A DNA stretch of 64,000 nucleotides, taken from Thioalkalivibrio sulfidiphilus (GTDB lineage Bacteria > Pseudomonadota > Gammaproteobacteria > Ectothiorhodospirales > Ectothiorhodospiraceae). Location of the stretch: the NCBI RefSeq assembly GCF_000377945.1, contig NZ_KB898932.1:1-64000 (forward strand), written 5' to 3'. The position numbers were made by a program, and so were the translations under genes. A model generated the notes under the pieces. The model had not been told where the DNA came from and searched no databases. It saw only the letters and a list, made by a program, of their open reading frames with translations. Shown here piece after piece: positions 32,030 to 43,610 of this stretch; position 1 is the first letter of the stretch; each line of letters opens with the position of its first letter.

Positions 32030-32040
32030 TCACTTCAGCA
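31885..32040. repeat. Inverted repeat of GAAGTGCGAAGTGGGAA units
   Basis: The left arm at 31885-31922 is made of GAAGTGCGAAGTGGGAATT-like units. The right arm at 31989-32040 is made of the complementary CCAATTCACACTTCGCACTTC. The centre is a 65-bp AT-richer spacer. The right end enters the sucrose synthase gene and supplies its TGA stop codon. Confidence 0.7.
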
Positions 32041-34408
32041 ACGCCAGTGGCCGGTACTGCAGCGCGTGGAACATCTCCAGGTAACGTCGCGTCTCGGCCC
32101 GTTCCAGGTTGGTGACGTACTTCCAGAAGCCGTAGATGCGTGACAGGGTCATCATGCGCTCCGCGTACAGCTTCCAGGTGTAACGTTGTTCCACGCGCCT
32201 GATGGCACTCCTTGAGATCTGCTGCCAGTGGCCCGGGTCGGACGCGCAGCGTTCGAGGAATTCCAGCAGGATGCGCGCGGCCTGTTCGCCGTGGTTGGGG
32301 TCGATGTGATAGCCGCTGATGCCGTCCTCGATGATCTCCAGCGGCCCGCCGTAGCGGGTGGCGAAGGTGGGCAGGCCCGAGGCCATGGCCTCGATCACCG
32401 TCAGGCCGAAGGCCTCGAACAGGGCCGGCTGCACGAACACGCCGCGCCGGTCGGCGATGCAGCGATACAACTCCCCGGACAGGGTCTTGTCCAGGCGCAC
32501 GCCCAGCCAGCGCACGCAGTCGTTGAGATCATGCTCGTCGAACAGCTGGTGCATCCGGGCGATCTGGGCCTGTTCCTCCTGGTCGTCGGAACGGGACGCA
32601 TCCACCGTGCCGGCCACCACCACCAGGTTGGCCCGCGCGCGCAGCTCGGTGTTCTGCGCGTACCAGGAGACGAGTCCCGCGATGTTCTTGATCCGGTCCA
32701 GGCGCGCCATGGTGAAGATCACCGGCCTGTCCGGTTCCGCCAGCACGCCGCGGGCATCGTCGCGGGGCCAGCCGAACAGCAGCGCGTCGATCTCCTGGTG
32801 CAGCCCGGTGATGCGCCGCTCCTCCTCCGTGTAGGGGAAGTACACCCGGTCATCGGCGCCCGGGGAGACGATGTTGAACTTGGGGTCGAACACGTCGATG
32901 CCGCGCACCACCCGGTAGAGATCCGGCAGCGAGAAGTGCATGTAACTCTCGTATTGGCCGATGTCCTCGCCGGTGCCGGCGATCTCCTGGTAGGTGCTGG
33001 TGATGATGAAGTCCGCCGCGTTCATGGCGATCAGGTCGGCGGTGAACTGGGTGGCGAAGTGGTACTGGGCGTCGTTGTCCTTCCAGTAGAGATCGGAATA
33101 CAGGTACTTGGTCTTCTCCAGGGCGTGGGCGATGTTGCACTGGGTCACGTGCAGGCGGGCCGAGAGCAGGGAGGCCACCAGGTTGCCGTCGGAGTAGTTG
33201 CCGATGATGAGATCAGGCCGTCCGCCCAGGTCCGCCAGGATGGCGCGTTCCACCTCGTCGGCGAAGCGTTCCAGGTAGGGCCAGATCTCGAAGCGGGAGA
33301 TCCACTGGGGCACCACCTCGCCGTCCTCGCCGCGAAACGGCACCCGCAGGATGCGCGCGTTCTCGGTGCCGGAGATGGCCTCCTCGGGCTGGTCGCAGCT
33401 GGTGCCCCGGGCCTCGGGGATCAGGCGGGTCACCACCCGGATGCGCGGCTCGATGTCCAGGCCCTGTTCCGCCAGCCGGTCACGCATCTCCCGCTCCAGG
33501 GCGCGCACCTGGTCCAGGATGTAGACCACCTGCCCGCCGGTGTCCGGCAGGCCCAGCACCCCCGCCTGGCCGAAGAAGCCGTGGGGGGAGAGGATCAGCA
33601 GACTGAAGATCATCGGGATGCGCGCCAGGAAGCGTTCCAGGCTCTCCGGGGACGGCGCCTCCAGCAGTTCCGAGAGCAGGCGCAGGGTCTCCTGTACCCG
33701 GCCCGCGTCCCGGCCCCAGCCGGGCTCGAAACCGAGGTCCTGCAGGGGGTGGGCGAAGTCCGCCCAGGGGGTATCCCGCTTGAGCCGGGCCAGGCGCTGT
33801 TCCGCGTCCCGGATCGCCACCCGCAGGGCGTCCACGTCCCGGATGCGGTCGTTGATCATCAGCAGCCGGCCGTCGCAGCGGTGTTCACGCAGGAAGCGGA
33901 ACAGCTTGTCCAGGCCGCCGTTGGCCCGGTCGAACAGCTGGCTGGAGAGCTTGCGGTTGAGGAACTCCACGCCGCGACCGATGGAGCGGGTCTCGCGCAG
34001 GCGCGGAAACTCCCGGTTGAAGGGCTCGATGTCGAACTCCAGGGGCCGGCCATGGCGGGGCGTGGGGCACACTAGACGCTCCTTGATGGCCAGGAACTCG
34101 CTCACTCCCAGGTCCTCCACGCTCAGGTCGTCGGCGTGGATGCGCAGGAACTGCCAGCGGCCGATGCGCGGGCGCAGGGCCAGGCAGACCCAGGGGGCCG
34201 CCAGCACCGCCTCCTGGGCCTGGCCCACCAGGTCCGCCAGGGGGCTCTCGGCCAGCCCCGGCTCGTCCCGCTCCAGGCACAGGGCCTGGAAGCCGTCCTG
34301 CAGGTCCGAACGCAGCAGGAAAGGGCGGCCCAGGGCCAGGTAGCGTCTGAGCAGCAGGTAGGCGGCTTCCCGGTGCAGTTCCAGGGCGTCCCGGGTGGGC
34401 TGGGTCAT
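32030..34408 (-). CDS. Sucrose synthase
   Basis: 792 residues, the length of plant and bacterial sucrose synthases. An N-terminal regulatory region of about 260 residues precedes a GT-B glycosyltransferase family 4 core. Diagnostic pieces are [33 protein letters not shown], and the nucleotide-sugar site [26 protein letters not shown]. It reversibly converts sucrose plus NDP to NDP-glucose and fructose. Sucrose-phosphate synthase and phosphatase are not in this window. In halotolerant bacteria sucrose serves as an osmolyte, so the enzyme may recycle it. The stop comes from a repeat arm. Confidence 0.92.
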
Positions 34409-34502: not shown

Positions 34503-35045
34503 ATGGCCACACCCCATTCCGAGATGAGCCGGCACGGCGCCGGTCAGGATGCCGTTTCCCCGCGGGGCCCCAGCGTGCAGACGGCCAGTGTTCAGACGGT
34601 GATCCGCCAGTTGCGCATCGTGTTCCGGGCCCTGCAGACCCACTCCCGCAGCATCGAGAAGGCCTGCGGCGTCAGTGCCGCCCAGCTATGGGCCCTGTGG
34701 GAACTGCATCGAAGCCCCGGTCTGAGCGTGGGGGACCTGTCCCAGTGCCTGATGATCCACCCGTCCACGGCCTCCAACATGCTGGACAAGCTGGAGAAAA
34801 AGCACCTGGTGGAGCGCCGCCGCGCGGGTCTGGACCAGCGGGTGGTGACGCTCTACCTCACCGCCCGGGGCGCGGAACTGCTGGAGGCGGCCCCGGCCCC
34901 CGCCCAGGGTGAGCTCAACCGTGCCCTGCAGGCCCTGCCCCTGGACCAGCTCGCGTCCCTGGAATCCGGTCTTGCCGCCCTGCTGGAACGCATGGACGAG
35001 CGCGACGATGACGCAGCCCTGCGGCCCATCGACAACGAGGACTGA
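34503..35045 (+). CDS. MarR-family transcriptional regulator
   Basis: 180 residues: a winged-helix domain of MarR type at residues about 40-145 (LSVGDLSQCLMIHPSTASNMLDKLEKKHLVERRRAGLDQRVVTLYLTARG). The N-terminal 35 residues are a low-complexity extension. It is divergent from the sucrose synthase gene and 4 bp upstream of the FN3 protein gene, so it may control either side. An imperfect palindrome GTAC-AAAAA-TAC-like at 34468-34480, shortly before its start, is a possible operator. Confidence 0.88.
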   Translation: MATPHSEMSRHGAGQDAVSPRGPSVQTASVQTVIRQLRIVFRALQTHSRSIEKACGVSAAQLWALWELHRSPGLSVGDLSQCLMIHPSTASNMLDKLEKKHLVERRRAGLDQRVVTLYLTARGAELLEAAPAPAQGELNRALQALPLDQLASLESGLAALLERMDERDDDAALRPIDNED

Positions 35046-35049
35046 GCCC

Positions 35050-35484
35050 TTGGCGCGTCGTGCACTGCTTCTGCTCTGGTGCCTGAGCCTGCTGGCCGCC
35101 CCGGCGGCGATGGCCGCGCCCGACCTGCGCGCCTCGCCCGAGCGGGCCACCGATGGCGTCTACCGCCTGAGCTGGGAGGCTGATGGGGCGGCCCGCTTCG
35201 AGCTGCAGGAGTCGGACGGCGCCCACTTCAACCCTGCGCGCACCCTGTACACCGGCGCTGACACCGCCTCGGTGATCACCGGCAAGCCGGATGGCGAGTA
35301 CTTCTACCGGGTGCGGGTGCTGGGCGAGTCGGGCCCCGGCCCCTGGAGCGAGCCGCTTCAGGTCACCGTGCAGCACCACAGCCTGGCCCGGGCGCTGCAA
35401 TTCTTTGTCGTGGGCGCACTGGTGTTCGCCGTCCTGCTGGCGGTGATCATCCGGGGCGCCCGGGAGGATCGAGACACCCCATGA
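35050..35484 (+). CDS. Secreted single-TM protein with FN3-like domain
   Basis: 144 residues from a TTG start 4 bp after the MarR stop; this start gives a clean signal peptide (LARRALLLLWCLSLLAAPAAMA). An FN3-like domain spans residues 30-105 (YRLSWEADGAARFELQES ... GEYFYRVRVLGESGPGPWSEPLQVTV). A C-terminal membrane helix (about 113-135) anchors it. Its stop overlaps the start of the hydrolase (ATGA), so it belongs to the operon. The function is unknown; it could be a periplasmic partner of the transport system. Confidence 0.75.
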   Translation: MARRALLLLWCLSLLAAPAAMAAPDLRASPERATDGVYRLSWEADGAARFELQESDGAHFNPARTLYTGADTASVITGKPDGEYFYRVRVLGESGPGPWSEPLQVTVQHHSLARALQFFVVGALVFAVLLAVIIRGAREDRDTP

Positions 35485-36770
35485 ACCACCCTATCCGAGT
35501 CAACTTTGAACGCCTGCGCGAGGACGTGCTTGCCCTGTCGCGCATCGGCCAGACCCCCGACCAGGGCATCCACCGCATGGCCTTCAGCGAGGGCGATCTG
35601 GAGGGCCGTCGCTGGTTCCGCTCGCGCATCGAAGCGGCGGGCCTGGAGGTCTACGAGGACGGCGCCGCCAACCTGCACGCGCGTCTGGACTGGGACGGCA
35701 AGCGCCCCAGCGTGATGATGGGCTCGCACCTGGACACGGTGCCCGGCGGCGGCCCCCTGGACGGGGCGCTCGGCGTGCTGGTGGGCCTCGAGGTGCTGCG
35801 CACCGTCAAGGAGGCGGGCGTCACGCTCAGGCATCCCCTGGAGGCGGTGGACTTCACCGACGAGGAGGGGCGCTTCGGCGGCCTGTTCGGCTCCCAGGCC
35901 ATCGCCGGGCAGCTGACCCCGGCGGTGATCCATAACGCCCGGGACCTGGATGGCGTGACCCTCACCGAGGCCATGGCCTCCTGGGGCCTGGACGCCAACG
36001 CTGCCCTGTTCGCCCGGCGTGCGCCGGATTCCATCCACGCCTACCTGGAACTGCACATCGAGCAGGGCCCGGTGCTGGACCGCAACCAGGTGTCCATCGG
36101 CGTGGTGGATGCCATCACCGGCCTGTTCAAGTGGGACGTGCGCCTCATGGGCCAGACCAACCACGCGGGCACCACCCCCATGGACATGCGCGTGGACAGC
36201 TTCCAGGGCCTGGCGGAATTCGCCGGCGAGATCAACCGCATCCTGGAGGAGCACGGCAGCCCCCACAGCCGCGCCACCATCGGCCGGGTGGAACTCAAGC
36301 CCGGCGCCGCCAACACCGTGCCGGGGCAGACCAGTTTCTCCCTGGACGTGCGTGACACCGACGCCGAGACCCTGAAGAACCTGGCGGATGCCTTCCGCCG
36401 CACCCTCTCGGCCCTGGCCCGCCGCCGGGACCTGATGTTCGAGTTCGACGTGCTCTCGGAGATCCCGCCCATGCGCTGCGATCCCGGCCTGGTGCAGCTG
36501 GTGACCGACACCGCAGAACGTCTCGACCTCAAGCACTTGCGCATGCCGAGCGGCGCCGCCCACGACGCCCAGATCATGGGCTCGGTGACCCGCACCGGCA
36601 TGATCTTCGTGCCGAGCCTGGAGGGCAAAAGCCACTCGGCCTCCGAGTGGACCGCTTGGGAGGACATCGAGCGGGGCGCGAACCTGGCCCTGCACACGGT
36701 GTTGCAGCTGGCCGCCGCGGATGCCGGCGCGGCCATGAGAGAACAAAAACCGAAGAGGAAGAAGGCATGA
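35481..36770 (+). CDS. M20 zinc hydrolase, N-carbamoyl-amino-acid hydrolase/allantoate amidohydrolase type
   Basis: 429 residues. Metal ligands and catalytic residues of the M20C family are visible: H83 in GSHLDTVPGGGPLDGALG with D94, the E128/E129 pair in DFTDEEGRFGG, H192 in HIEQGPVL, and a C-terminal SGAAHDA and GKSHSASE. Enzymes of this family cleave N-carbamoyl (ureido) groups from amino acids, giving CO2 and ammonia. The gene overlaps the FN3 gene upstream and the isochorismatase-family gene downstream by 4 bp each, so the three are co-translated. In this context it probably degrades an N-carbamoyl compound imported or made by the neighbours. Confidence 0.9.
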   Translation: MNHPIRVNFERLREDVLALSRIGQTPDQGIHRMAFSEGDLEGRRWFRSRIEAAGLEVYEDGAANLHARLDWDGKRPSVMMGSHLDTVPGGGPLDGALGVLVGLEVLRTVKEAGVTLRHPLEAVDFTDEEGRFGGLFGSQAIAGQLTPAVIHNARDLDGVTLTEAMASWGLDANAALFARRAPDSIHAYLELHIEQGPVLDRNQVSIGVVDAITGLFKWDVRLMGQTNHAGTTPMDMRVDSFQGLAEFAGEINRILEEHGSPHSRATIGRVELKPGAANTVPGQTSFSLDVRDTDAETLKNLADAFRRTLSALARRRDLMFEFDVLSEIPPMRCDPGLVQLVTDTAERLDLKHLRMPSGAAHDAQIMGSVTRTGMIFVPSLEGKSHSASEWTAWEDIERGANLALHTVLQLAAADAGAAMREQKPKRKKA

Positions 36771-37510
36771 GCAAGCCGGACAACGTCACCGACCTGTCGA
36801 AGTACGACAGCATCGACCCGCTCAGGGACCAGTACCGCGAGACCCTGATCACCAACCGGATCCTGAAGCGGGAACTGGGCGCCCACCACGCGGCCCTGCT
36901 GTGCATCGACCTGCAGTACCTGGATGCGGCGCGTGGCTACGGCGTGTTCGCCGACTGCGAGCGATCCGGCGTGCCCATCGAGGCCCAGGAGTACTACTTC
37001 AACGCCCTGGAGAACCAGGTGCTGCCCAACGTGCGGCGCCTGCAGGACGCCTTCCGTGCCGTGGGCCTGGAGGTGATCCACACCCGCATCCAGTCGCTCA
37101 CCGCCGATGGCCGCGACCGGGGTCCGGGGCACAAGCGCCTCAACCTGCATGCCGCGCCCGGTTCCAAAGAGGCGGAGTTCGTGGAGATGGTCGCGCCCCA
37201 GGGCGACGAGATCATCATCAACAAGACCGCCAGCGGCGTGTTCACCTCCACGAACCTGGAGTACGTGCTGCGCAACCTGGAGATCACGTCGCTCTTCGTG
37301 GTGGGGGTCTACAGCAACGAGTGCGTCTCCACCGCCATCCGTGATGCCTGTGACCTGGGCTTCTACGTGACGCTGATCGAGGACGGCTGCGCGACGGTGA
37401 CCCCGGAGATGCAGCAGGCGACGCTGACCACCATCAAGGACCGCTATGCCCGGGTGATGAGCACCGACGAGGCACTGGCCGAAGTGGCCAAGGTGGCGGA
37501 GGCCTCGTGA
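36767..37510 (+). CDS. Isochorismatase-family cysteine hydrolase
   Basis: 247 residues from the ATG overlapping the M20 stop. The catalytic triad is readable: D48 (LLCIDLQ), K153 (INKTASGVF) and C186 (GVYSNECVSTAIRDA). The family includes N-carbamoylsarcosine amidase, ureidoacrylate and biuret hydrolases, so a C-N (amide or ureide) hydrolysis is likely. The N-terminal 40 residues are longer than usual. Coupled to the M20 enzyme and the symporter, it would act on the same compound or its breakdown product. Confidence 0.9.
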   Translation: MSKPDNVTDLSKYDSIDPLRDQYRETLITNRILKRELGAHHAALLCIDLQYLDAARGYGVFADCERSGVPIEAQEYYFNALENQVLPNVRRLQDAFRAVGLEVIHTRIQSLTADGRDRGPGHKRLNLHAAPGSKEAEFVEMVAPQGDEIIINKTASGVFTSTNLEYVLRNLEITSLFVVGVYSNECVSTAIRDACDLGFYVTLIEDGCATVTPEMQQATLTTIKDRYARVMSTDEALAEVAKVAEAS

Positions 37511-38943
37511 ACGGGCCTGAGACGGCCGTGCTCCCGGCGGGTATCGCCTGGGGCATCCTCGGGGCGTTCAGTGTCCTGTGGGTGTTCCTGGGCTGGTACC
37601 TGGGGCGCAGAGCGCGGACCGTGGACGACTACATGCTGGCCGGACGCAACGTGGGGCTTGCGCTCGCCACTGCCACCGCCATGGCCACCTGGGTGACCAC
37701 CAACACCACCATGGCCGCGCCCCAGTTCGCACTGCAACTGGGCATCTGGGGCATGGTGGGCTATGCCCTGGGCTCTGTGGGACTGATCCTGTTCGCGCCA
37801 CTGGCGGGGCGCATCCGCAGGTTGATGCCGGGCGGCTTTACCAGTGGCGATTTCATCCGCCTGCGTTACGGCAACACCGCCTGGCGCGTGTTCCTGGTGA
37901 TCTCGCTGATCTATGGCCTGGGCTGGCTGATCAGTTTAGGCATGGCCGGCGGCGTGCTCATCGAGGCGCTCGCCGGTATCGACTACCGGGTGGGCATGAG
38001 CGTGATCCTGTTCATCTGCGTGCTCTACACCCTGCTGGGCGGTCTGCGCGCGGTGATCGGCACCGACTTCGTTCAGACGATCCTGATCCTGGTGGGCCTG
38101 GTCATCCTGGCGTGGCTGGTCATCGCTCAGGTCGGCTTCGGTGAAATCCACGTGACGGTCTCGGAACAGCGTCCCGAACTGCTGAATCTGCTGTTCCCCG
38201 CCGCGATCATGTTCCTGTTCAACAACCTGCTGTTCGGCGTGGGCGAGATCTTTCATTCCAACGTGTGGTGGAGCCGCGCCTTCGCCTTCGGCCGGGGCGT
38301 GGGCAAGCGGGCCTACCTGATGGCGGGCCTGTTGTGGATGCCCATTCCCATCGTCGCCGGTTTCATAGCCCTGGCCACGCCGGCGCTCGGCATCAACGTG
38401 CCTGGCGCCGACATGGTGGGGCCCCTGGTGGCCGGTGAGCTGCTGGGCCTGGCGGGCGCCATCATCGTCTTCATCGTGGTGTTCTCGGCGCTGGCTTCCA
38501 GCGTGGACTCGGTACTGGCCGCCACGTCGGACCTGGTGACCCGGGACATCTACAAGGGCCACCTGCGCAGGCAGGCCGGCGAGCGCGAAGTCTATCTGGC
38601 CGCCAAGACCATCGTGGTGGTGCTGGGCACGGTGACCTGGGCCCTGTGCATGCTGCGCCTGGGCACGCTGGGCGCCGTGCTGCAGTTCCTGGGCGCCTTC
38701 GTGGCCAGCACCATCATGCCCATCGTCGCCGGCCTCTACTGGCGGCGCACCAACCCCTGGGGCGTGATCGCCGCCATGGTGCTGGGCACGGTGATCGGGC
38801 TTTACAGCTATTTCGCCATCGGCTTCTACGTGGCGGCACTGGTGTCCGCGGCCATCTCCATGGCGCTGGTGCTGGTGACGACCTGGCTGTGGCCGAGGGA
38901 TTTCCAGTGGGCCAGTCTGCGTGAAGAGCCGCTGCGTGGCTGA
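37507..38943 (+). CDS. Sodium:solute symporter (SSS family)
   Basis: 478 residues with about 13 membrane helices. It starts at GTG overlapping the upstream stop (GTGA). The family core is seen in RRARTVDDYMLAGRNVGLALATATAMATWVTTNTTM and the later ALASSVDSVLAATSDLVTRDIY segment that contributes Na+ sites. Among SSS branches it looks closest to the urea/ureide (Dur3-like) group, but substrate assignment from sequence is weak. It should import a small solute with Na+. Confidence 0.88.
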   Translation: MNGPETAVLPAGIAWGILGAFSVLWVFLGWYLGRRARTVDDYMLAGRNVGLALATATAMATWVTTNTTMAAPQFALQLGIWGMVGYALGSVGLILFAPLAGRIRRLMPGGFTSGDFIRLRYGNTAWRVFLVISLIYGLGWLISLGMAGGVLIEALAGIDYRVGMSVILFICVLYTLLGGLRAVIGTDFVQTILILVGLVILAWLVIAQVGFGEIHVTVSEQRPELLNLLFPAAIMFLFNNLLFGVGEIFHSNVWWSRAFAFGRGVGKRAYLMAGLLWMPIPIVAGFIALATPALGINVPGADMVGPLVAGELLGLAGAIIVFIVVFSALASSVDSVLAATSDLVTRDIYKGHLRRQAGEREVYLAAKTIVVVLGTVTWALCMLRLGTLGAVLQFLGAFVASTIMPIVAGLYWRRTNPWGVIAAMVLGTVIGLYSYFAIGFYVAALVSAAISMALVLVTTWLWPRDFQWASLREEPLRG

Positions 38944-38945
38944 AC

Positions 38946-39095
38946 AACAGCGTGCCGCAGAGACGCGGAGGCGCGGAGAAATGAAATGGACAGGATTAAC
39001 AGGATTTACATGTAAAAGGTTCAATCCTGTGAATCCGCTTTCATCCTGTCAATCCTGTCAGAGGATTTTATGTCTTGCCCTCCGCGCCACGGCGT
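38946..39095. repeat. GACAGGATT-type palindrome inside GACGCGGAGGCGCGGAG arms
   Basis: GCAGAGACGCGGAGGCGCGGAG (38956-38976) and CCTCCGCGCCACGGCG (39079-39094) are outer arms. ACAGGATTAACAGGATTTACATG (from 38990) and CATCCTGTCAATCCTGTCAG (to 39062) are inner arms. It separates the symporter from the next gene on the same strand. Confidence 0.7.
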
Positions 39096-39131
39096 TTCAG
39101 CGGCAAGTAGTGAATTGAAGGAGATGCATCC

Positions 39132-39254
39132 ATGACCCTATCCGTCAGTGCATTCACATGGCTGGTGAGCATTGCCACCGTGGTGACCACCCTGTCGCCG
39201 CTGCTGCTCATCGGTTTGTTCATCCGTGACCTGAGGAGGGGCACGCTATGGTAG
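39132..39254 (+). CDS. 40-aa single-membrane-helix protein, possible symporter accessory subunit
   Basis: A 41-codon frame starting MTLSVSAFTWLV and ending RDLRRGTLW, preceded by a near-perfect AAGGAG site. Residues 8-33 form one membrane helix, followed by a basic cytoplasmic-looking tail. Its last codons overlap the start of the carbamoyltransferase (ATGGTAG: ATG of the next gene, TAG of this one), so the two are translationally coupled. Small one-helix proteins encoded beside SSS symporters are known as accessory subunits, which fits the position after the symporter. Too short for standard ORF calls. Confidence 0.75.
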   Translation: MTLSVSAFTWLVSIATVVTTLSPLLLIGLFIRDLRRGTLW

Positions 39255-40336
39255 AGACCAACGACGCGCAGCTGGACCGGCCGCTGCAGCCCAAGGACGG
39301 TACCGCCGGTATCGAGCGGCCCAAGGCGCTGCTGGACAGCCTGCCCGAGGATCCGCGCCCGCTCATGACCCTGTCCAGCCGGCACGTGGTCTCCTCGCGC
39401 CAGTTCGACCGGGAGACCCTGGTGCAGCTGTTCCGCCTCGCGGCCCAGTACGAGAGCACGCCCGCGCTGCTGCATCCGCCCCTGGCCGGCAAGATCCTGA
39501 TCAGCGCCTTCTACGAGCCGAGCACCCGTACACGCCTGTCCTTCGAGAGCGCCTGGCACCGGCTGGGCGGGGACATCATGTCCATCACCGACCCGAAGAG
39601 TACGGGCATGGCCAAGGGCGAATCGCTCGCTGACATCGCCGAGATGTTCAACAACTACGGTGACGTGATCGTGCTGCGCAACAACGAAGGCCCGGCGATC
39701 TACGAGATGCTGGACTCCCTGCGCATCCCCATCATCAACGCGGGCAACGGCATCGACGAGCATCCCACCCAGGCCATGGCGGATGTCTACACCATCATGA
39801 AGTGGCGTCCCGAACTGGCCCGCACGGATCTGCCCGCCGGGCAGCGCATCCGCATCGGCATCATCGGCGTACCCAGCCGCATGCGCACCGTGCGCAGCCT
39901 GCTCTTGACCTTGGGCTGCTTCGCCCACGCCATCGAAGAGGTGGTGATCCTGAGTCGCGAGGACAATCTGTTCGACGAGGGCCAGGCCGAGGAGTTGGGC
40001 GGGGCCGGGCTCAAGGTGCGCGTGGCCACGGATCTGGACGGTGAACTGCCGAGCCTGGACGTGGTGTACATCAATGCCATCGCCTGGGTGGGAGACACCT
40101 TCGAGGCCATGGGCATGGACATGCGCCTGTCCGCCGCCTCGCCGCTGAAGAAGGGCGCCATCGTGTTGCACCCGCTCGCCCGCGGCGAGGAACTGTCCAC
40201 CGACCTGGATAAGACCCCCCACAACTGGTACTTCGCCCAGGCCCGCGGCGCGGTATTCATCCGCATGGCCCTGCTCACCTGCATGGTGCGCCGGATCAGC
40301 GAGGTCATGGATGTGCCGGATGTCGGGCGCGGCTGA
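39248..40336 (+). CDS. Aspartate/ornithine carbamoyltransferase-family enzyme of altered specificity
   Basis: 362 residues, ATCase-like throughout, with an N-terminal extension of about 40 residues. Carbamoyl-phosphate site intact: STRTR (92-96) and HPTQ (172-175). The Arg that binds the alpha-carboxylate is kept (RTVRSLL, R213). The 240s loop that in ATCase reads R-x-Q and binds the aspartate side chain is replaced by YINAIAWVGDTF (274-285), and HPLPR is HPLAR (308-312). OTCase's DVW signature is also absent. It should carbamoylate an amino acid other than aspartate. It lies between the 40-aa gene and an AsnB-type gene, not near pyrimidine genes. Glutamine is my proposed substrate. Confidence 0.85.
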   Translation: MVETNDAQLDRPLQPKDGTAGIERPKALLDSLPEDPRPLMTLSSRHVVSSRQFDRETLVQLFRLAAQYESTPALLHPPLAGKILISAFYEPSTRTRLSFESAWHRLGGDIMSITDPKSTGMAKGESLADIAEMFNNYGDVIVLRNNEGPAIYEMLDSLRIPIINAGNGIDEHPTQAMADVYTIMKWRPELARTDLPAGQRIRIGIIGVPSRMRTVRSLLLTLGCFAHAIEEVVILSREDNLFDEGQAEELGGAGLKVRVATDLDGELPSLDVVYINAIAWVGDTFEAMGMDMRLSAASPLKKGAIVLHPLARGEELSTDLDKTPHNWYFAQARGAVFIRMALLTCMVRRISEVMDVPDVGRG

Positions 40337-40354
40337 AATGAACTGAATTCAAGG

Positions 40355-40520
40355 CGGCCGCAGAGACGCGGAGGCGCGGAGAGAGAAACGCTTTGACAGG
40401 ATTTACATGATTGACAGGATTAAAACTGCTTTCTACAGATCCTAGTCTTAAATCATGTTGATCATGTAAATCCTGTCCAGTCCTTTGATATCTCCGCGTC
40501 TCCGCGTCTCTGCGGCAATC
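40355..40520. repeat. GACAGGATTTACATGATTGAC palindrome inside GACGCGGAG arms
   Basis: The outer arms GCAGAGACGCGGAGGCGCGGAGA (40360-40382) and CTCCGCGTCTCTGCGGC (about 40499-40516) enclose inner arms GACAGGATTTACATGATTGA (from 40395) and ATCATGTAAATCCTGTCCAG (to 40482). It occupies the gap between the carbamoyltransferase and the amidotransferase genes. Confidence 0.7.
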
Positions 40521-40560
40521 ATCAAGCCTTTCTGAGTAATGTAAGCAGGAGAAAACACAC

Positions 40561-42573
40561 ATGTGTGGAATTGCAGGCGTGTTGCACGCCGACCCCAAAC
40601 AGCCCGTTGATCCCGAAACCCTGGTGGCCATGGCGGCCATCCAGTATCACCGGGGTCCGGACGGTTTCGGTTATCGCGTGGAGAAGGATCGCGGGGTGGG
40701 TTTTTCCCACGCCCGTCTGACCATCATCGATCTGGACGAGAACCGCGGCCGTCAGCCCTTCGCCTCCCAGGACGGCAACCTGATGCTGGCGGTCAACGGT
40801 GAACTCTACGACTACAAGCGCATTCGCACCGAGCTGACCTCCCGAGGCGCCAAGTTTCGCTCCAAGAGCGATTCCGAGATCGTGCTTCATCTCTATGAAC
40901 GCTACGGCCTGGAGGAGACCCTGAAGCAGATGCGCGGCGAGTACGCCGTGGCCCTGTACGACCGGGCCAAGGATCGCCTCATGCTGATCCGCGACCGTTT
41001 CGGCGTGAAGCCCCTGTACTGGACCGAGGTCAACGGCAAGATCGTGTTCGGTTCCGAGATCAAGGTGCTGTTCGCCCACCCGGACGTGCCGCGCCGTTTC
41101 AACGCCCAGGGCCTCTATCACCAGCTGATGCAGACCGTGGTGCCCGGCACCACGGCCTTTGACGGCATCCACCAGGTCAAGCCCGGCCACGTGATCACCT
41201 TCGAGCGGCGCCATGGCAAGTTCGAGATCAAGGACGAGCGCTACTGGGACATGGACTTCCCGCTGCTTTCCGAGCGTGGCGAGCCCGAGGACGACGAGGT
41301 CTACATCGAGGGCGTGCGCAGGGAACTGATGGAGGCGGTGCAGCTGCGTCTCGAGGCGGACGTGCCCGTGGCCTGCTATCTCTCCGGCGGAATCGACTCC
41401 TGCATCACCCTGGGGCTGTCGGCAGCCAACCAGCAGTCCCCGGTCAAGGCCTTCACCATCGGCTTCGACAATGCAGACTATGACGAGACCGCTATTGCAA
41501 AGGAGATGGCCGAGTCCGTGGGCGCCGACCAGGACATCATGCGGCTCAATGCCGACCACCTCTACGACAACCTGGTGGAGACCCTCTGGCACGCCGAGCG
41601 CACCATCTACAACACCCTGGGCGTGGCCAAGCTGCTCATGAGCCGGCACGTGAACCAGGCCGGTTACCGGGTGGTGGTCACCGGCGAGGGCTCCGACGAG
41701 CTGTTTGCCGGCTACCCGGCCTTCCGCCGCGACATGTTCCTGCACGGCCTGGATCACATGGATCCCGCCGAGCGGGCCAGCTGGGAGCAGATGCTGGCGG
41801 AGAGCAACAAGCTGTTCTCCGGTGCGATGCTGGCCGAGAACGAACTCAACGACCCGGCGCTCAGCGACCTGGTGGGTTTCACCCCCTCCTGCCTGCAGCC
41901 CTGGCTGGCCACCGCCGCCCACGTGCCGGGCCTCATGTCCGAGGCCATGCGTGAACAGGTGCAAGGCTACGAGCCGGGCCGCGCCATCGCCGAGGCCCTG
42001 GACGGCGACATGATCGAGGGGCGTCATCCCCTGGACAAGGCCCAGTACGTGTGGATCAAGACCATGCTGGAAGGCCAGATCCTCACCTGGGGCGGCGACC
42101 GGGTGGACATGGCGAACTCCATGGAGGCCCGCCCGCCGTTCCTGGATCACCACCTGGCGGAATTCGCGACAAAGATCCCGCCCTCCATGCGTATCCGTGG
42201 CCGCACCGAGAAGTACGTGCTGCGCGAGTCCATGAAGGGCCTGCTGCCCAAGGTGCTCTATGAGCGCGAGAAGTTCGCTTTCATGGCCCCGCCGGCCCAC
42301 ACGGACCCGAAGAAGTGGGCCGCCATGAAGGCCCTGGCCGATGAATACCTCTCCGACGAGGCCATCGAGGCCGCCGGCCTGCTGGACCCCTCTGGCGTAA
42401 AGGCCCTGTTCGCCCTGCACGAGGCCGAGAACACCTCCGCCTCCACCCAGGTACAGCTGGACGCGGTGATCAACCACATGATCGGCGTGCAGGTCCTGCA
42501 CAGTCACTTCGTGGCTCAGGACGTGCCGGCGTTGGCGCGCAGGAAGGCGCAGGAATTGGGCTGGGCCGCGTAA
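40561..42573 (+). CDS. AsnB-type glutamine-dependent amidotransferase
   Basis: 670 residues. The nucleophile C2 follows the start Met (MCGIAGV). The class II glutaminase domain runs to about residue 210 (YHRGPDGFG, NGELYDY, RDRFGVKPLYW). The synthetase domain has the ATP-pyrophosphatase motif SGGIDS near 275 and GEGSDELFAGY. It uses ATP and glutamine nitrogen to amidate a carboxylate. Family members make asparagine or terminal amides, such as in N-acetylglutaminylglutamine amide synthesis. The neighbour makes an N-carbamoyl amino acid, so amidation of that product is plausible. True asparagine synthesis remains the alternative. A clear AGGAG site precedes the start. Confidence 0.88.
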   Translation: MCGIAGVLHADPKQPVDPETLVAMAAIQYHRGPDGFGYRVEKDRGVGFSHARLTIIDLDENRGRQPFASQDGNLMLAVNGELYDYKRIRTELTSRGAKFRSKSDSEIVLHLYERYGLEETLKQMRGEYAVALYDRAKDRLMLIRDRFGVKPLYWTEVNGKIVFGSEIKVLFAHPDVPRRFNAQGLYHQLMQTVVPGTTAFDGIHQVKPGHVITFERRHGKFEIKDERYWDMDFPLLSERGEPEDDEVYIEGVRRELMEAVQLRLEADVPVACYLSGGIDSCITLGLSAANQQSPVKAFTIGFDNADYDETAIAKEMAESVGADQDIMRLNADHLYDNLVETLWHAERTIYNTLGVAKLLMSRHVNQAGYRVVVTGEGSDELFAGYPAFRRDMFLHGLDHMDPAERASWEQMLAESNKLFSGAMLAENELNDPALSDLVGFTPSCLQPWLATAAHVPGLMSEAMREQVQGYEPGRAIAEALDGDMIEGRHPLDKAQYVWIKTMLEGQILTWGGDRVDMANSMEARPPFLDHHLAEFATKIPPSMRIRGRTEKYVLRESMKGLLPKVLYEREKFAFMAPPAHTDPKKWAAMKALADEYLSDEAIEAAGLLDPSGVKALFALHEAENTSASTQVQLDAVINHMIGVQVLHSHFVAQDVPALARRKAQELGWAA

Positions 42574-42656
42574 GTGGCAAGTGGCAAGTCTCAAGTGGCA
42601 AGGAACTTCGGTTATTGATTTCCCTTGCCACTAGCCACTTGAGACTTGCCACTGTT
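42573..42656. repeat. Inverted repeat of AGTGGCAAGT units
   Basis: The left arm 42573-42603 and right arm 42625-42654 are built from AGTGGCAAGTCTCAAGTGGC and its complement, around a 20-bp centre. The left arm begins at the TAA stop of the amidotransferase gene. Confidence 0.75.
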
Positions 42657-42689
42657 CACTGATCTGACATTACACACGGAGCTTCAAAC

Positions 42690-43610
42690 ATGGAACTCGT
42701 CCTGGAATACCTCGAAGGCGTCCAATGGGAAGACCTGATCTTCTCCACCCTGCGCATCCTGCTCATCCTGGTCATGGCCTGGGTGATCATGAGCGTGGTC
42801 CGGGGTGGTCTGGCCCGCATGGAAAGAAAGCTGGTGGAAGCCGGCAAGAAGCAGGGCGATGTGCCCTCGGAGGCCACCAAACGTGCCGAGACCCTGGTGC
42901 GGCTGTTGCGCCAGCTGGTGCTCATCGTGGTCTGGGTGATGGCCTTGCTGGTGATCCTCAACGAGCTGGGCGTCTCCGTGGCCCCCATCCTGGCCTCGGC
43001 CGGCGTACTGGGCCTGGCCATCGGCTTCGGCGCCCAGAACCTGGTGCGCGACGTGATCAGCGGCTTCTTCTTCATCCTGGAGAACCAGGTGCGCGTGGGC
43101 GACGTGGTGGTGGTTAACGGCACCGGCGGGCTGGTGGAGGGCATCAACTTCCGCACTCTGGTGCTGCGTGACCTGGAGGGCAAGGTGCACATCTTCCCCA
43201 ACGGCACCATCGACGCGGTCACCAACCTGACCCGGGAATGGTCTGCCTATGTGTTCGACATCGGCGTGGCCTACAAGGAGGACACCGACAAGGTGGTGGG
43301 CATCCTCAAGGACGTGGGCGAGGAGATGATGGCCGACACCGAATACGGCCCCAACATCCAGGACATCGAGATCTTCGGCGTGGACAAGTTCGATGACTCC
43401 GCCGTGGTGATCAAGGGGCGCATTAAGACCCTGCCCATCAAGCAGTGGTACGTGGGCCGTGAGTTCCTGAGGCGCGTCAAGTATGCGTTCGATGCCCACG
43501 GTGTGGAGATCCCGTTCCCGCACAGGACGCTATACTTTGGCGAAGCCAGTCCCCCGTTCTTGACCCGCATGCTCAATCAGCAGACCCCTGCGGGCGAGAA
43601 CGGCCAATAA
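42690..43610 (+). CDS. mscS: Small-conductance mechanosensitive channel MscS
   Basis: 306 residues. Three membrane helices lie in residues 15-115, the pore helix being SVAPILASAGVLGLAIGFGAQNLVRDVISG. The beta domain follows (NQVRVGDVVVVNGTGGLVEGINFRTLVLRDLEGKVHIFPNGTI), then the C-terminal alpha/beta domain. Length is normal for MscS. The channel opens under membrane tension and releases solutes on osmotic down-shock. It lies directly downstream of the carbamoyltransferase/amidotransferase pair. Confidence 0.93.
   Translation: MELVLEYLEGVQWEDLIFSTLRILLILVMAWVIMSVVRGGLARMERKLVEAGKKQGDVPSEATKRAETLVRLLRQLVLIVVWVMALLVILNELGVSVAPILASAGVLGLAIGFGAQNLVRDVISGFFFILENQVRVGDVVVVNGTGGLVEGINFRTLVLRDLEGKVHIFPNGTIDAVTNLTREWSAYVFDIGVAYKEDTDKVVGILKDVGEEMMADTEYGPNIQDIEIFGVDKFDDSAVVIKGRIKTLPIKQWYVGREFLRRVKYAFDAHGVEIPFPHRTLYFGEASPPFLTRMLNQQTPAGENGQ

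Follow-up and report, generated by a model that had tools for sequence, protein, structure and literature searches.

A candidate carbamoyltransferase-amidotransferase gene cluster for the compatible solute Nα-carbamoyl-L-glutamine 1-amide in Thioalkalivibrio and other saline bacteria

A carbamoyltransferase and an AsnB-type amidotransferase in one gene run

Within a 64,000-nucleotide stretch of contig NZ_KB898932.1 (the window), which belongs to a close relative of Thioalkalivibrio sulfidiphilus, we examined a run of intact genes on the + strand (window positions 34503-42573) that may encode synthesis and recycling of the compatible solute Nα-carbamoyl-L-glutamine 1-amide (CGA). The run begins with a MarR-family regulator, followed by an Fn3-like membrane protein, an M20-family hydrolase, an isochorismatase-family hydrolase, a symporter of the sodium:solute symporter (SSS) family, a 40-aa open reading frame (ORF), a carbamoyltransferase and an AsnB-type amidotransferase; genes for an MscS channel and a DUF302 protein come next (Table 1). 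The source genome comprises 3.05 Mb in 69 contigs, and its nearest relative among the genomes compared (G044, 3,464,554 bp) encodes a carbamoyltransferase 99% identical to that of the window. All genes named in an earlier sequence-only reading of this DNA are present on the + strand, and the MarR regulator, the Fn3-like protein, the 40-aa membrane protein and a divergent sucrose synthase are additions to it. As it had described, the M20/isochorismatase and isochorismatase/symporter genes overlap, by 4 bases each; the stop of the 40-aa ORF likewise overlaps the start of the carbamoyltransferase gene, and these overlaps make translational coupling likely. A promoter and terminator scan gave matches no more frequent than in shuffles.

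The carbamoyltransferase is a distinct family. It scored below all equivalog cut-offs for aspartate and ornithine carbamoyltransferases (ATCase and OTCase; TIGR00670, 186.6 vs 237 bits; NF002032, 183.5 vs 263 bits). Aligning 80 orthologues against Escherichia coli PyrB revealed that the carbamoyl-phosphate site is intact, with the equivalents of Ser52, Thr53, Arg54, Thr55, Arg105 and His134 kept in 80/80 and that of Gln137 in 79/80; Lys84, Arg167, Pro266 and Leu267 likewise have unchanged counterparts in all 80. In every one of these orthologues, Arg229 is replaced by Ala, Ser or Thr and Gln231 by Ala or Ser (Val in one case), which bears out the altered side-chain pocket noted earlier; in addition, Lys232 has become Trp and Pro268 has become Ala. 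In ATCase, Arg167 contacts the alpha-carboxylate of aspartate, while Arg229, Gln231 and Lys84 contact its beta-carboxylate. Retention of Arg167 together with loss of Arg229 and Gln231 therefore points to a functional carbamoyltransferase whose acceptor amino acid has a free alpha-carboxylate and lacks an acidic side chain. The pocket would fit a neutral acceptor such as glutamine and suggests that carbamoylation precedes amidation. Because the pocket residues are almost invariant across all carriers, a single substrate for all of them can be argued. An AlphaFold model built from 32 orthologues adopted the ATCase fold with a mean predicted local distance difference test score (pLDDT) of 84. The pocket residues and the scores under the cut-offs together rule out an ordinary ATCase duplicate. 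Similar interspersed repeats (of the GACAGGATTAACAGGATTTACATG and GCAGAGACGCGGAGGCGCGGAG types) at window positions 38955-39080 and 40355-40525 bracket the carbamoyltransferase gene and part it from its neighbours.

The cluster AsnB starts with MCG (N-terminal Cys nucleophile) and carries the ATP-pyrophosphatase loop SGGiDSC, both conserved in 72 aligned cluster AsnB sequences, along with long invariant blocks of its own. It reached 302.7 bits with the model of the amidotransferase for N-acetylglutaminylglutamine amide (NAGGN; TIGR03104, cut-off 570) and 276 bits with that of E. coli-type AsnB (NF006949, cut-off 499; E. coli AsnB as control, 1050), and also stayed under the cut-off of the XrtA amidotransferase model. 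A residue comparison with E. coli AsnB was not used for specificity, because the differing segment is common to many AsnB-like enzymes. No Ngg (TIGR03103), the partner enzyme in NAGGN synthesis, was found over cut-off in the four genomes tested for it, namely the window's genome, T. sulfidiphilus and two Ectothiorhodospira genomes; together with the score, this rules out the cluster AsnB as a NAGGN enzyme. Elsewhere in the window's genome (L172:5763-7544), another protein without an Ngg partner over cut-off scored 980 bits as N-acetylglutaminylglutamine amidotransferase (cut-off 570); it is an orphan amidotransferase that may serve a different product, glutathione amide for instance.

Linkage of the pair, the known CGA producer and the neighbouring genes

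The AsnB gene lies directly downstream of the carbamoyltransferase gene in 77 of the 80 named loci (in Leptospiraceae, after both hydrolases). Two of the three non-adjacent cases are contig ends, and in the third, Thiorhodospira sibirica, AsnB is encoded elsewhere. Across 370 evenly sampled gammaproteobacterial genomes, with a presence threshold of E <= 1e-130 for both genes, carbamoyltransferase and AsnB occurred in exactly the same 23 genomes (P ~4e-37 if independent, a rough measure only since the genomes are related). Their clustering is thus far beyond chance, and the pair acts as a single genetic unit. The carbamoyltransferase gene was present in all 38 good genomes of the window's order. 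Below about 60% identity, carbamoyltransferase-like proteins lack an AsnB neighbour with one exception, a 47%-identical homologue from another proteobacterial family, where symporter, carbamoyltransferase and AsnB stand together and the pocket is altered in the same way. Such carbamoyltransferase-like proteins at L061-L065 (35-43% identical, no AsnB neighbour) no longer contain the STRTR and HPL motifs, and they are probably not working carbamoyltransferases.

Lineages as distant as Idiomarinaceae, Kangiella relatives and Leptospiraceae share a core of symporter, small membrane protein, carbamoyltransferase and AsnB, which the Fn3-like protein often precedes. Metagenome-assembled genomes of Leptospiraceae/Spirochaetaceae (L102-L104, L110, L112, L115, L122) contain the whole set in the order symporter, carbamoyltransferase, M20, isochorismatase, AsnB; this altered order suggests horizontal transfer and reshuffling. 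The named carriers presumably all come from saline habitats.

CGA has been described from Ectothiorhodospira marismortui only (PMC3857566, PMC1224877), whose type strain is DSM 4180 (PMC8877833). The sequence-only reading had held that absence of the pair from known producers would refute it, and this main test came out in its favour. Contig NZ_FOUO01000006.1 of DSM 4180 (L076) encodes, in a row, MarR, M20 (84% identical), isochorismatase (83%), carbamoyltransferase (78%) and AsnB (85%), so that the pair is intact in the producer together with both hydrolases. At the same locus, a 794-aa homologue of sucrose synthase is encoded divergently upstream; this further osmolyte-related gene holds the same upstream, divergent position in the window and in Ectothiorhodospira loci. 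The DSM 4180 genome contains three carbamoyltransferase matches in total, the cluster gene and two at ATCase/OTCase level. Its symporter orthologue (65%) lies elsewhere in the genome, where the Fn3-like protein again adjoins it.

Both hydrolases belong to families that cleave N-carbamoyl amino acids, ureides and amides, in agreement with the roles they had been given in the sequence-only reading. The M20 enzyme exceeded the cut-offs of the hydantoinase/carbamoylase model TIGR01879 (383 bits, cut-off 204) and of NF006771 (550 bits, cut-off 399), and its best solved relative is the N-carbamoyl-L-amino acid hydrolase 3n5f. Its residues H83, D94, E128/E129, H192 and H385, which we take to be the metal ligands of the family, are conserved in 46 sequences. 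For the isochorismatase-family hydrolase, the nearest characterised enzymes are biuret hydrolase and N-carbamoylsarcosine amidohydrolase, and the likely catalytic residues K153 and C186 are conserved in 49 sequences. Since relatives of both enzymes cleave such compounds and the probable active-site residues are retained, it would be natural for the two to degrade CGA to glutamine. The two hydrolases accompany the cluster in Ectothiorhodospiraceae, Leptospiraceae and several other Gammaproteobacteria; they are missing from the Idiomarinaceae loci, which keep symporter, carbamoyltransferase and AsnB, and in certain further lineages a less similar M20 homologue (45-47%) is encoded close by.

The SSS symporter is encoded upstream of the carbamoyltransferase in most loci. 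The Fn3-like protein, for which no Pfam or NCBIfam match was found, travels with the symporter even where the symporter module sits elsewhere in the genome. A small ORF between symporter and carbamoyltransferase is conserved in many lineages, among them Thioalkalivibrio, Idiomarinaceae and Leptospiraceae, and its product ends in a motif like (K/R)GxLW; no Pfam or NCBIfam model matches this protein, which is possibly a small partner subunit of the symporter. MarR keeps the first position in Thioalkalivibrio and Ectothiorhodospira loci and is the probable regulator of the cluster. An MscS gene does stand in a row with the pair in the window, as had been observed before, but the efflux role proposed for it is not supported: outside the window's genus and some Ectothiorhodospira, nearly all loci lack an MscS gene next to the pair. 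MscS as a dedicated efflux part was therefore rejected, and it is probably a local neighbour only.

Table 1 Features at the carbamoyltransferase-AsnB locus (window positions)
Feature	Position	Strand	Basis and remarks
Sucrose synthase	32030..34408	-	TIGR02470, 1197 bits (cut-off 810); divergent neighbour, context only, outside the proposed pathway
MarR-family transcriptional regulator	34503..35045	+	Pfam MarR/MarR_2; first gene of the run
Fn3-like membrane protein	~35008..35484	+	Signal peptide, Fn3-like domain and C-terminal membrane helix, judged by eye; start uncertain
M20-family N-carbamoyl-amino-acid hydrolase	35481..36770	+	TIGR01879, NF006771
Isochorismatase-fold cysteine hydrolase	36767..37510	+	Pfam PF00857
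Sodium:solute symporter, SSS family	37507..38943	+	PF00474
40-aa single-helix membrane protein	39132..39254	+	Sequence; C-terminus ...RRGTLW
Carbamoyltransferase, 'HPLARG / YINxIxW' type	39248..40336	+	PF02729 + PF00185
AsnB-type glutamine-dependent amidotransferase	40561..42573	+	Asn_synthase + GATase domains
MscS-type mechanosensitive channel	42690..43610	+	PF00924 etc.

Proposed CGA pathway and competing explanations

The carbamoyl-amide osmolyte interpretation of the sequence-only reading gains support from the presence of the pair in the producer, its tight linkage in other genomes, the pocket, the AsnB scores under curated cut-offs and the hydrolase families. Judged from these sequence comparisons, we give a probability of roughly 0.77 to the proposal that the carbamoyltransferase-AsnB pair builds CGA from carbamoyl phosphate and glutamine, and that the neighbouring genes import and recycle it. 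In the first step, the carbamoyltransferase would transfer the carbamoyl group of carbamoyl phosphate to the alpha-amino group of free L-glutamine, giving carbamoyl-glutamine; the AsnB-type enzyme would then activate the alpha-carboxylate with ATP and form CGA by amidation, a second glutamine supplying the ammonia. Together with the Fn3-like and 40-aa proteins as partners, the symporter would take leaked or external CGA, or one of its breakdown products, back into the cell. At decreasing salinity, the isochorismatase-type amidase would strip the 1-amide from CGA, and the M20 carbamoylase would then convert carbamoyl-glutamine to glutamine, CO2 and NH3, with MarR probably controlling expression of the cluster. 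With somewhat more reserve, we also consider it likely that a new family of L-glutamine carbamoyltransferase and its dedicated amidotransferase constitute the CGA pathway, and that CGA, for which a dedicated sodium symporter module and enzymes of breakdown exist, is common in Ectothiorhodospiraceae, Idiomarinaceae, Kangiella relatives, marine Leptospiraceae and other saline bacteria.

Several observations weigh against this proposal. The cluster AsnB scored above the cut-off of the broad asparagine-synthase model TIGR01536, glutamine and another neutral amino acid are indistinguishable as acceptors by sequence, and both hydrolase families are able to attack ureido groups, so that the order of degradation is not fixed. 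Even E. marismortui contains CGA as a minor solute (PMC3857566). Moreover, solute and transcriptome papers on Thioalkalivibrio leave CGA unmentioned, and the solutes named are glycine betaine and sucrose only (PMC3072093, PMC9062515), though all good genomes of the order carry the gene; CGA may therefore be minor, unexpressed or missed in these bacteria, or not the product. In T. versutus D301 at high salt, glutamine synthetase (glnA, upregulated 8.3-fold) and nitrogen uptake rose strongly whereas betaine-synthesis genes did not (PMC9062515), a response that provides circumstantial agreement with extra demand for a four-nitrogen solute.

The silence on CGA in Thioalkalivibrio solute studies also favours the view that at least some carriers, or all of them, use the pair to produce another N-carbamoyl amino-acid amide osmolyte, derived for instance from asparagine, serine, alanine or glycine, and that glutamine is the acceptor in Ectothiorhodospira only or nowhere; the pocket change as such shows only that reading of an acidic side chain is lost. 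We regard this as unlikely, because the compound produced by E. marismortui is the glutamine derivative and the carbamoyltransferase of this pair is the only additional one in that species, and the near-invariant pocket speaks for one substrate across carriers. That the M20 and isochorismatase enzymes come from ureido-degrading families would fit a mainly catabolic locus, in which an N-carbamoyl amino acid enters through the symporter and is broken down by the two hydrolases, while the carbamoyltransferase works in reverse to yield carbamoyl phosphate. Such a locus is, however, very improbable: Idiomarinaceae loci retain symporter, carbamoyltransferase and AsnB where both hydrolases are lacking, and an AsnB that consumes ATP and glutamine is biosynthetic.

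Relatives of AsnB perform the amidations of NAGGN and glutathione amide synthesis, and glutathione amide is believed to be produced by Ectothiorhodospiraceae (PMC8877833). An AsnB serving either of these, next to a carbamoyltransferase that is a chance neighbour or an odd ATCase, nevertheless seems hardly credible given that the cluster enzyme falls far short of the NAGGN cut-off (303 vs 570 bits) which another protein of the same genome clearly exceeds (980 bits), that no Ngg partner exceeded its cut-off in the genomes tested, and that AsnB is tightly linked to the carbamoyltransferase while a separate ATCase-like gene exists.

The sequence-only reading knew of no assigned genes for this pathway, and the open-access literature (subscription journals lay outside the search) likewise yielded no published gene assignment for CGA, which was discovered in 1991. 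If the assignment to CGA is true, it would provide the first biosynthetic pathway for this solute, extend the aspartate/ornithine carbamoyltransferase superfamily by a further substrate, open a route to CGA production in a laboratory host and correct database entries that label these proteins generically as aspartate carbamoyltransferase or asparagine synthase. It would also predict that nitrogen-rich CGA is produced, exchanged and consumed by many bacteria of marine and soda-lake habitats, so that a supposed one-species solute would be widespread.

Comparison with known systems

Individually, the enzymes of the cluster resemble characterised families from which they depart in specific features. 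The carbamoyltransferase shares with PyrB the fold, the carbamoyl-phosphate site and the Arg167 and Lys84 equivalents, but differs from it in the replacement of Arg229, Gln231 and Lys232, in HPLARG in place of HPLPR and in an N-terminal extension, besides scoring under the ATCase equivalog cut-offs. Putrescine, N-acetylornithine and YgeW carbamoyltransferases set a precedent for other acceptors; their models, however, gave weak scores far under cut-offs and matched mainly the carbamoyl-phosphate half. The M20 enzyme scores over the cut-off of the TIGR01879 subfamily and has its nearest structure in 3n5f, as expected of the hydantoinase/carbamoylase family, whereas its genomic partner here is a biosynthetic carbamoyltransferase-AsnB pair and no hydantoinase.

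As a whole, the cluster is comparable to the NAGGN operon of Sinorhizobium and Pseudomonas, which consists of asnO, ngg and a peptidase gene with the MarR regulator PA3458 (PMC8070244). In both systems (putatively in the present one), glutamine has its amino group blocked by a transferase and the terminal carboxylate is converted to an amide by an enzyme of AsnB type; genes for a hydrolase and a MarR regulator lie close to these two (PMC8070244). In contrast to Ngg, which acetylates and peptide-couples, an enzyme of ATCase fold would carbamoylate glutamine here; the AsnB belongs to a different subfamily, and a sodium symporter module together with carbamoylase and amidase enzymes is added.

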